DNA of 64,000 nt, from NCBI RefSeq assembly GCF_017696075.1, contig NZ_JAAORI010000004.1, forward strand, positions 1-64,000, written 5' to 3'. Shown one piece after another: positions 19,451 to 62,250 of this stretch. Both the position numbers and the translations under genes were made by a program. Each line of letters starts with the position of its first letter. Position 1 is the stretch's first letter. The notes beneath the pieces are model-generated. The model was not told the origin of the DNA. It worked only from the letters and a program-made list of their open reading frames with translations, and did no database searches. This DNA comes from Prochlorococcus marinus XMU1411. Lineage in GTDB: Bacteria; Cyanobacteriota; Cyanobacteriia; PCC-6307; Cyanobiaceae.

Positions 19451-19821
19451 AAATTTTTGCTATAAATTAATTGAGGCCAAACCTCATCAGCACACTCTGC
19501 GTTTGCTGCAAGACATAGATTGATTCAATATAGTTGCGAGTCAATTTAATAACCCTTTCAGTAGTTGGAATTTCTGGGAGGGTTTCTTGTTTAATACCCA
19601 ATTAATAATTAAATTTTTTATTTAATTTATTTATATTTAGCCCAATGAACAGCAACTATATAATTAGCAAAGACTATTAGTAAGAAACTATAGTAAGTTT
19701 AATCATTTTTAAATAGTGTTATTTGCTAAAAATAATAACCTTTAAATAAATAACTAGGATAGGTACTTTACCTAATATTTTTCGTTAGCTGTAGAAGGAA
19801 TCAATTTATTATAAGTATTAA
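19451..19821. other. Non-coding stretch with decayed copy of the 11.1-kb small gene
   Basis: 19631-19773 aligns with 11107-11250, the 37-aa gene and its upstream leader, but carries substitutions that break the frame. Before it, GAGGCCAAACCTC (19472-19484) forms a small hairpin. No intact gene was found. Confidence 0.5.
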
Positions 19822-33020: not shown

Positions 33021-33329
33021 TTAAGATGCTGCTGCAATTTCTTTATGGACGGAAAGAAATTCCTTATCCGTTAAAACTGGTGTAACTTCAATTTCTACTC
33101 CAAAATTATCGACCCAGATACTACTCCATTTCCAAATGTTCTGATGGTTTGAAGATTCAACTATTGCCCAACCATTAGCTCCCTCAGGATTTACTACTCG
33201 ATTAAGAACTTTAAACCCATCAAATTCATCACCTTCGCATCCTCCTTCTACAAAACCCGCAAAAGCTTCGGCCCCTTGCATATGACTCTCTTGATCTGGA
33301 AATTGCCAGTGCACTATGTAAGTTTGCAT
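33021..33329 (-). CDS. DUF3303-family protein, 102 aa
   Basis: MQTYIVHWQFPDQESHMQGA, then CEGDEFDGFKVLNRVVNPEG, ANGWAIVESSNHQNIWKWSS, WVDNFGVEIEVTPVLTDKEF. This is the DUF3303 pattern of a dimeric alpha+beta-barrel-type fold (W/GWAIVES and F-x-V-x-PVLTD). Function unknown. Related to 24222-24560. Confidence 0.75.
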   Translation of the reverse strand: MQTYIVHWQFPDQESHMQGAEAFAGFVEGGCEGDEFDGFKVLNRVVNPEGANGWAIVESSNHQNIWKWSSIWVDNFGVEIEVTPVLTDKEFLSVHKEIAAAS

Positions 33330-33454
33330 GAATAAAATTACTTTTTTTTAAATTATTAATTATCGAATTTAAAAATTAAATAAAAAGTCTTTAAACACTA
33401 ATTAAAAACTCATAAACCCAAAGGCAAAAAAACAAAAAAAAAGACTCTTACGAG

Positions 33455-33625
33455 CCTAGGTGATGGGGACTCCTATAATGACAAATTAAACAGAAACAAA
33501 CAACCCCATCAATAGGTAATTTTAAATACTTACAAACACCATATGTAGTGCTAAGATTTTAAAAAGGCTGGGTGATGGGGATTATCACGCTTTTTTATTG
33601 GGGCAAAGCTAACGCCCTTTTTTTT
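33455..33625 (+). promoter_or_regulatory. Three-hairpin leader or small RNA before DUF1651 gene
   Basis: Hairpin 1: CCTAGGTGATGGGG (33455-33468) pairs with CCCCATCAATAGG (33504-33516). Hairpin 2: GTGAT (33572-33576) with ATCAC (33584-33588), then GC and six T. Hairpin 3: GGGC (33601-33604) with GCCC (33614-33617), then eight T ending at the ATG (33626). GGTGATGGGGA occurs in both hairpins 1 and 2. May be a regulatory leader or an independent RNA. Confidence 0.5.
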
Positions 33626-33886
33626 ATGGAAAAATTTACTTTAATCAATAAAGCCAGATCGAGGATTAAAGTATTTGAAACTTTTGAAGATAGTTCTAAG
33701 AACTCTTCTATAATTAATGCAATTTTCATATCTTATGATTGTGTTTTTAAGCGATCATGTAAGCCAGTTATGAAAGGCTCTAGAGTTGAATCTATCGAAG
33801 AAGAAAGACATAAATATAAAAAACTATTAGAGGAAGGGTGGAAAAAAGCTACAGGTACAATATTTTTTTCTAAAAATGGTGATTAG
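33626..33886 (+). CDS. DUF1651-like protein, 86 aa
   Basis: MEKFTLINKARSRIKVFETF, then KGSRVESIEEERHKYKKLLE and EGWKKATGTIFFSKNGD. ATG at 33626 is chosen because it matches the start of the paralogue at 27095-27343; a frame extension to 33572 runs through a terminator hairpin. No ribosome binding site: the T-run of hairpin 3 abuts the ATG. Confidence 0.68.
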   Translation: MEKFTLINKARSRIKVFETFEDSSKNSSIINAIFISYDCVFKRSCKPVMKGSRVESIEEERHKYKKLLEEGWKKATGTIFFSKNGD

Positions 33887-37074: not shown

Positions 37075-37263
37075 GGTCTTTTGCAGTTAATGAGAATCCC
37101 GTTCCCTAATCCCATTTCATGCGTCCAGAGATATAAACTTGGATGAACGTAAATGAACAATAACATCTTTAAAAAAATTCTGCGAGAGTAATTTTTACTA
37201 AATTTTTCTCAAAAAAATAAATATTGAATAGATAGTGTAAATAAGGTTTTAATATTTCCTAAA

Positions 37264-58355: not shown

Positions 58356-58516
58356 AATTTAATTTCTTATTTTTTAATAAGTTTTTGTATTGCCATTAAC
58401 ATCTTGTAAATTAAATTGTACTTATAGTTAAAATGTAGCGTAGACTACATAAACGTTCATCTCGTTTTACGAGCCGCATTAAGATTGAAGCCAAGGAACG
58501 GGGACTTCAGTCAAAA

Positions 58517-62103: not shown

Positions 62104-62250
62104 TATGAGAAAAAATATAAAAAAAAAGAGATTGTTTCTTAGCTAAAAACAATCTCTCAATTACCTAATTCTTACATGAAAATTTCAAGTAAGCTCACAG
62201 ATTTTAACTGATTTTTTTTTATAGTAAATACGCAAAAATACTTTTGTTAT

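Follow-up and report, generated by a model that had tools for sequence, protein, structure and literature searches.

The accessible parts of earlier reports describe Prochlorococcus as having very few regulatory proteins (PMC2518516) and strain MED4 as having five sigma factors (PMC2663038), and PMM1697 (rpoD4) cycles over the day (PMC2663038) and, at a single time point, had a lower level under UV (PMC2921402). Among the small RNAs of these organisms, Yfr103 is, like the family described below, multi-copy, structured and picocyanobacterial: the available sections of its description give it seven paralogues in Synechococcus CC9605 (55.2% of the mdRNA-Seq reads of that strain), rank it as the most abundant ncRNA in MIT9313 cultures, place homologues in marine Synechococcus and low-light Prochlorococcus, and call its function 'enigmatic' (PMC5069720). 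In MED4, the Yfr8/Yfr9 and Yfr6/Yfr14 pairs are likewise two complementary RNAs from one locus, but in the portions of PMC2518516 at hand they lie at other positions and contain peptide frames. Yfr1 and Yfr2-5 share with it the general design of a small cyanobacterial RNA with a short conserved motif, and PMM1697 is entered among the six Yfr1 targets of one available table (PMC3142192), but the Yfr1 motif ACUCCUCACAC, as printed in the accessible part of PMC2518516, differs from the element's UCCCCAUCACC. Cyano-1 RNA (RF01701) is a separate family without a match to the element. Sequence comparison led us to reject identity with Yfr8, 9, 10, 11, 14, 15 or 16 (Yfr8, Yfr9 and Yfr14 versus the element: no significant similarity, best E 1.7). 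We also observed a Cyano-1 RNA just 3' of two low-light copies of the family, on the same strand (L154:1394-1461(-) and L155:1394-1460(-)).

The element of about 195 bp studied here lies in the window (the whole 64,000-nucleotide stretch of DNA that was analysed), where it adjoins a DUF3303 gene and a DUF1651-like ORF (Table 1). Judged by its sequence and its relatives, it is one copy of a dispersed small-RNA gene family present in most Prochlorococcus genomes searched and in relatives. We favour, at a probability of roughly two in three, the reading that its minus strand would encode a trans-acting sRNA of a multi-copy picocyanobacterial family that blocks translation of rpoD4.

Table 1. Positions of the element, its neighbours and its predicted parts (window coordinates unless another contig is named)
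Feature	Position	Strand	Remark
Whole conserved element	33432..33626	.	sharp ends, unrelated neighbourhoods; many second copies align only there
Predicted minus-strand small RNA	33434..33600	-	predicted extent; 3' end = U-run complementary to 33434-33442
H1, intrinsic terminator hairpin AGGCUC-GUAA-GAGUCU	33442..33457	-	followed by U-run 33434-33441
3' anti-sigma box UCCCCAUCACC	33459..33469	-	exact 11-mer
TATAAT, possible -10 of a plus-strand RNA (predicted)	33474..33479	+	TATCAT in many copies
UGAUGGGG, may pair with either box (possible auto-mask)	33504..33511	-	GGGG nearly invariant in alignment A4
Imperfect palindrome CACUACAUAUGGUG, hairpin or protein site	33537..33550	-	strand-wise pairing
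H2, terminator hairpin with U-tail	33561..33596	+	holds complement of 5' box; strand-wise folding
5' anti-sigma box UCCCCAUCACC	33571..33581	-	within AUCCCCAUCACCC, 13 nt complementary to rpoD4 start
H3, terminator GGGGC..GCCC + T8	33600..33625	+	three cells changed on both sides
DUF3303 gene, neighbour outside the unit	33021..33329	-	Pfam 2.4e-21
DUF1651-like ORF, outside the unit	33626..33886	+	ATG abuts H3 T-run
TCCCCATCACC occurrences	33459-33469; 33571-33581; 619464 (second copy); C6:170105-170115	.	exact search, own genome
GGGTGATGGGGATC sites (mismatches)	rpoD4 start (0); window copy (1); C3 copy (2); site without overlapping 50-aa ORF (2)

A search of 200 congeneric genomes with positions 33400-33640 returned matches in 173, including 66 of the 67 of good quality, and many genomes held two or three matches, with only three candidates scored per genome. 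For many second copies the alignment is confined to about 33432-33630 and stops abruptly, in at least three unrelated neighbourhoods; outside the window context the neighbours are an ABM-domain gene or unnamed small genes, and two contexts have minus-strand genes on both sides. The genome itself carries a second, shorter copy (L101, contig C3:619320-619505). The strain names that we give to the compared genomes (MED4, MIT9313, SS120, CC9605, CC9902, MIT9515, MIT9215, AS9601, MIT9301) are those that we take the assemblies to represent. For MED4 the assignment is backed by the Yfr10 motif at 346668 (published 346661..346738) and by both rpoD4 primers, and a copy at 348775-348967 lies between Yfr10 and Yfr11, which the accessible part of PMC2518516 assigns to genomic island 1; the MED4 copies, which also include 772355-772535 and 936646-936837, are absent from Table 1 of that paper. 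Inverted pairs of copies some 15-17 kb apart are common (G050, G193, G321, G322, G277) and possibly flank variable regions.

The first-pass annotation had read the locus as a riboswitch or attenuator leader of a DUF1651 gene, with a long stem, two terminator-like hairpins and a strand able to pair with either of two repeats. Its description of the parts was borne out: the stem arms CCTAGGTGATGGGG (33455-33468) and CCCCATCAATAGG (33504-33516) are where it put them, GGTGATGGGGA occurs twice (33459-33469 and 33571-33581), GGGG, located between the boxes, can pair with one copy or the other, and T-runs follow the hairpins at 33561-33596 and 33600-33625. A regulatory RNA with terminators is indeed what the family and H1, H2 and H3 point to, but the neighbourhoods of the copies are too varied for a leader of the DUF1651-like gene. 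A constant same-strand position upstream of one gene or pathway, as expected of an attenuator, was not found: the element also occurs in other contexts, the DUF1651-like ORF is gone in 3 of the first 30 window-context loci (L004, L015, L019), where the element remains 96-97% identical, several other window-context loci have a shorter ORF next to an element at least 95% identical, and the strands of the downstream genes are mixed. Neither does the ORF at 33626 itself match Pfam DUF1651 at E<=10, although of the two relatives tried one does (1.4e-11; the other reached 20.1 versus a cut-off of 22 bits). The alternative pairing and the two plus-strand terminators directly 5' of the ATG are what speaks for such a leader; the main covarying terminator is on the opposite strand and a search with Rfam covariance models gave no match in the element at E<=10. 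We therefore rejected a cis leader of this gene, which we regard as highly improbable. The ATG (33626-33629) touches the T-run of H3 and leaves no room for a Shine-Dalgarno sequence, and TATGG seems to be part of the element's end in two contexts.

Folding each hairpin on both strands, with no pairs chosen beforehand and thus more fairly than with fold-chosen pair sets, revealed two strand-specific terminators. H1, a minus-strand terminator (stem 33457-33442, then a U-run) that the first-pass annotation had missed, folds better on the minus strand in 17 of 19 distinct sequences (33440-33460; means -7.04 versus -2.79 kcal/mol on plus), whereas H2 folds better on plus in all 37 (-12.74 versus -3.82 kcal/mol). 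The two hairpins face outwards and end in T-runs, so that each strand would have its own terminator. Neither the H3 stem (14 versus 15) nor the palindrome (minus favoured by only 5 of 8 distinct sequences) has a clear strand preference; one pair of the palindrome is U.G on minus and C.A on plus in 29 of 40. In H2 and H3 taken together, 83 cells pair only on plus and none only on minus, with pairs taken from the plus fold. H1 is also the hairpin that covaries. Across 26 aligned copies all 127 scorable cells pair, three of the five pairs vary (GU 13, GC 9, AU 4; CG 18, UG 6, UA 2; CG 19, UA 4), and six cells are doubly changed, a number that, like the covariation score, was reached by none of 500 shuffles; two of the five measures, how many pairs are doubly changed and how many pair types occur, are unexceptional (148 and 401 of 500 shuffles). 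The covariation that the earlier annotation had proposed to look for thus appeared in H1, but its long stem, although present, fared poorly on both strands: on plus the outer three pairs are broken in 6, 7 and 8 of 40 with one double change, and the covariation score is reached by 144 of 500 shuffles; on minus, 6, 9 and 11 of the 40 sequences disrupt three of its pairs, and two double changes were counted. Outside H1, alifold gives a weak consensus. By itself the plus strand folds only a little more stably than its shuffles (z -1.53; 14 of 200 fold as well), so one sequence leaves the structure unproven and it is conservation that supplies the proof.

These hairpins bear on two further readings. 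One is a minus-strand cis leader, that is, an attenuator before the gene on the left (DUF3303, the ABM protein or others). A same-strand small gene follows H1 in the high-light contexts A, B and C and in MIT9515, and in MED4 (L037) the ABM ORF starts directly at the end of the element on the RNA's strand; the downstream genes are nonetheless unrelated, and of 27 more distant copies, 12 have their nearest ORF downstream of the minus RNA on the same strand, 14 have it on the opposite strand and 1 has none, which makes this reading very improbable. An ABM-like protein gene also lies 3' of the RNA, on the same strand, in L132 (G207, a low-light-type genome), so this neighbourhood, found in MED4 and one low-light-type genome, may be old; the Pfam test of the ABM protein covered the high-light protein. 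The other reading is a plus-strand decoy, in which two GGUGAUGGGGA copies would mimic the rpoD4 start, absorb a protein or sRNA and raise RpoD4 in a CsrB-like fashion. The plus-strand terminators are as good and as strand-specific as H1, as the H2 folds and the plus-only pairs above attest, a TATAAT lies upstream on that strand, and hairpins with T-runs resembling H3 were seen by eye in many low-light and Synechococcus copies. What makes the decoy unlikely in our judgement is H1, retained and covarying in distant copies yet minus-specific, together with two copies (L101 and MED4 936646) that keep the box and H1 but in which no right-hand plus-strand terminator was visible by eye in the stretch read. 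A short RNA of 45-50 nt starting at the box was dropped as a candidate: a -10-like TANNNT stood at the best plausible offset before only 5 of 72 box-plus-terminator units, versus 0 of 115 other boxes. This want of a clear promoter also counts against the favoured sRNA reading.

The deepest conserved feature of the family is CCCCATCA within UCCCCAUCACC(C), the box of the minus-strand RNA and the complement of the repeated GGTGATGGGGA. Most copies read have two boxes, the 5' box is missing from some distant copies, and CCCCATCA of the 3' box is invariant in alignments A4-A6, a conservation that is partly built in since the box is part of the models used to find the copies. An exact search of the own genome found TCCCCATCACC four times (reversed control: 0), three times in two family copies and once elsewhere, at C6:170105-170115, where the 11-mer is antisense to GGTGATGGGGA in AGGAGGCCAGGGTGATGGGGATCCC, a segment that comprises the start of a sigma factor gene and its Shine-Dalgarno sequence. 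The encoded protein scores 395.1 bits against TIGR02997 (cut-off 384.5) and has Pfam sigma-70 regions 1.2, 2, 3 and 4. Its MED4 orthologue, whose start carries the motif, contains exactly both qPCR primers for PMM1697/rpoD4 given in the available part of PMC2921402, although the published primer positions are 60 nt larger than those counted from the start codon used here, and the peptides encoded by the primers occur in 0 of 10 paralogue loci. The predicted target gene is thus RpoD4/PMM1697, a group-2 sigma factor.

The complementarity at this start stands out from controls. Against the rpoD4 start the RNA has an exact complement of up to 13 nt. Among 572 control windows, taken where 411 predicted genes begin (in 400 kb of genome plus the window), the maximum was 12, reached once, and none of 2000 shuffled RNAs reached 13 nt. 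Up to two mismatches to the 14-mer GGGTGATGGGGATC yielded four sites in the own genome (Table 1); up to three yielded 52, with 26 for the reversed control, which leaves the weaker sites unremarkable. By duplex energy the rpoD4 start ranks first of 576 with the core RNA, with a thin lead (-40.4 versus -40.0 for the best control), third with a longer RNA that has both boxes (behind two element windows), and 30th with the plus-strand RNA; the duplex of the window copy stops short of the Shine-Dalgarno sequence. The 11-mer also occurs four times each in MED4, MIT9515, MIT9215, AS9601 and MIT9301 (reversed control 0, in MED4 1), and in all five one site is near the chromosome end, the place of the sigma gene, as read in MED4 and MIT9515. 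In five genomes besides the own one the 11-mer is also present elsewhere; 13 of these places were read and none was at a sigma start.

The target site is conserved as well. All 21 marine-type genomes read (a label that is inferred for part of them) have GGTGATGGGGATC where rpoD4 begins, so that conserved complementarity to a distant mRNA start (13 nt; 21/21) accompanies an intrinsic terminator of the RNA's own (H1), as expected of a trans-acting sRNA. In 20 of the 21 rows, leaving out G322 (codon 4 CCG), codons 2, 3 and 5 (GGG, ATC, CTG) are identical throughout and CCT is found in 18, whereas codons 8-12 differ between rows. The reading frame is closed by a stop 15-48 nt upstream, and the sole alternative start, in 19 of 20, is a GTG at -3. 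The motif was absent from three sigma paralogue loci and was not recognisable in one rpoD4 orthologue (G215; 1/20). Among six distant genomes with a readable rpoD4 start, four have GGGGAC (genera g9 and g14), and the site reads GGTCATGGGGAT (GGTCATGGGG) in genus g11 and GGTGATGAGT in genus g13. Correspondingly, the inverted box of Cyanobium-like loci is GATGGGGAC in 35 of 41 and GATGGGGAT in none of the 41, which were hand-picked among the TGATCCCCATCACCCGGCC matches listed, and 179 of 244 distinct marine-type box segments have the A matching GGGGAT. This is suggestive of a parallel change of the Cyanobium box and the distant rpoD4 start; because the genome sets differ, Cyanobium box 1 keeps GATCCCC and the base is variable in marine 3' boxes, it does not amount to a test of covariation.

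Related copies extend across the picocyanobacteria. Model R1 matched 120 of 271 family genomes in 14 of 34 genera, and model R2 matched 114 of 222 at E<=0.001 with 1-10 copies per genome, the high numbers (up to 10) including low-light Prochlorococcus and Synechococcus; the genomes that we take to be MIT9313, SS120 and MED4 had 3, 4 and 3 copies, those of MIT9313 including 1082997-1083203 and 1102824-1103023. With model R3 all 24 genomes matched, 22 of them preselected by R2 and two (G209, G219) not, these having only weak partial matches. Scanning named genomes with TGATCCCCATCACCCGGCC gave at least 120 stretches; among the 80 matches listed, 71 are cyanobacterial (Prochlorococcus, Synechococcus, Cyanobium, Aphanothece and similar), the nine in other bacteria are likely due to chance, and R2 fits named Prochlorococcus and Synechococcus single-cell genomes among the matches. 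H1, its loop arm lengthened, is still present in more distant copies, whose right side has decayed; in Cyanobium and kin the form is rearranged, with box 1 followed by an inverted box-plus-terminator. The CC9605 genome also has solitary box-plus-terminator units from which the rest of the element is missing (L343 and L344), and the ORF 3' of L343 resembles a trpD gene by eye. By eye, TTATCCACA/TGTGGATAA-like motifs, which we take to be DnaA-box-like, were seen in or beside Synechococcus copies L165, L166, L168, L170, L172, L176 and L182. No Rfam 15 family matched within the element at its gathering score, none at E<=10 overlapped 33432-33626, and none at E<=1 overlapped ten low-light copies.

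Multiple dispersed copies, often in inverted pairs about 15 kb apart, and the fact that no retained reading frame was seen among the copies could also mark a mobile or spacer-like repeat with bidirectional terminators, derived from a copied rpoD4 start and without a regulatory role. We consider this improbable, as the box is kept from high-light Prochlorococcus to Synechococcus while the remainder diverges to a mean column identity of 47-48%, a hairpin covaries, and the rpoD4 start is itself kept at the nucleotide level. Two other candidates were rejected: a conserved small peptide, since a shared reading frame was not seen by eye, and viral carriage, since the window element matched none of 50,697 phage records and shared no exact 21-mer with viral contigs, 20 of which have one box by pattern and in which the family model gave only two box-long matches (E 0.02).

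Under the trans-acting sRNA reading, a minus-strand RNA from the window copy, if transcribed as predicted, would end at H1 and carry the box (A)UCCCCAUCACC(C) twice, both times antisense to the site where translation of rpoD4 mRNA begins. In the window copy the box would span the start codon, the bases that separate it from the Shine-Dalgarno sequence, and roughly eight bases of coding sequence. As the most conserved part of the RNA is the complement of a sigma gene start, the RNA probably turns its translation down: a bound box would keep ribosomes from entering and reduce RpoD4. Until the target displaces it, an internal GAUGGGG may mask one box at a time. The plus strand, complementary to the sRNA and with two target-like GGTGATGGGGA copies at its disposal plus terminators of its own, could yield an antisense RNA or sponge, or itself be a functional decoy. 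The accessible literature on Yfr103, rpoD4 and PMM1697 contains no report of the element's RNA acting on rpoD4. A widespread multi-copy RNA aimed at one sigma factor would be a main control knob of a very numerous photosynthetic cell.

Is this family Yfr103? We compared the two by the published description of Yfr103 rather than by sequence, and the agreement is circumstantial. The strains named for Yfr103 that we take our SS120, MIT9313 and CC9902 genomes to be all carry the family. For CC9605, seven Yfr103 paralogues compare with eight R3 matches (E<=0.001) at seven loci (299530-299663, 517358, 534561, 833670, 1030591, 1082134 and 1438557), four full and three partial and weak, so that the numbers agree only when the three weak ones are included; the length of 290-328 nt compares with 236-280 nt between the outer runs of the four full copies, a span that leaves the 5' part uncounted, and such spans and the palindromes did not fix the start of Yfr103. 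The family is also present in high-light strains, none of which the available sections of the Yfr103 paper name (PMC5069720). We therefore regard it as likely, though not proven, that the family is Yfr103, the element perhaps being its high-light version; if so, an enigmatic abundant RNA would gain a specific, testable target and extend to high-light strains. More tentatively, as a proposal that we give roughly one chance in three, the element, its low-light and Synechococcus relatives and Yfr103 might form one RpoD4-control family in which the minus strand silences via two boxes and the plus strand is a two-site sponge. If true, the reportedly most abundant marine picocyanobacterial ncRNA would be a global sigma-factor brake, whose strength gene copy number (1 to 10) would set from ecotype to ecotype.

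Elsewhere in the window, Rfam models matched two Glutamine-II riboswitches (58451-58510 on plus and 37090-37152 on minus), Yfr13 (19473-19570) and Yfr19 (62114-62194, minus).
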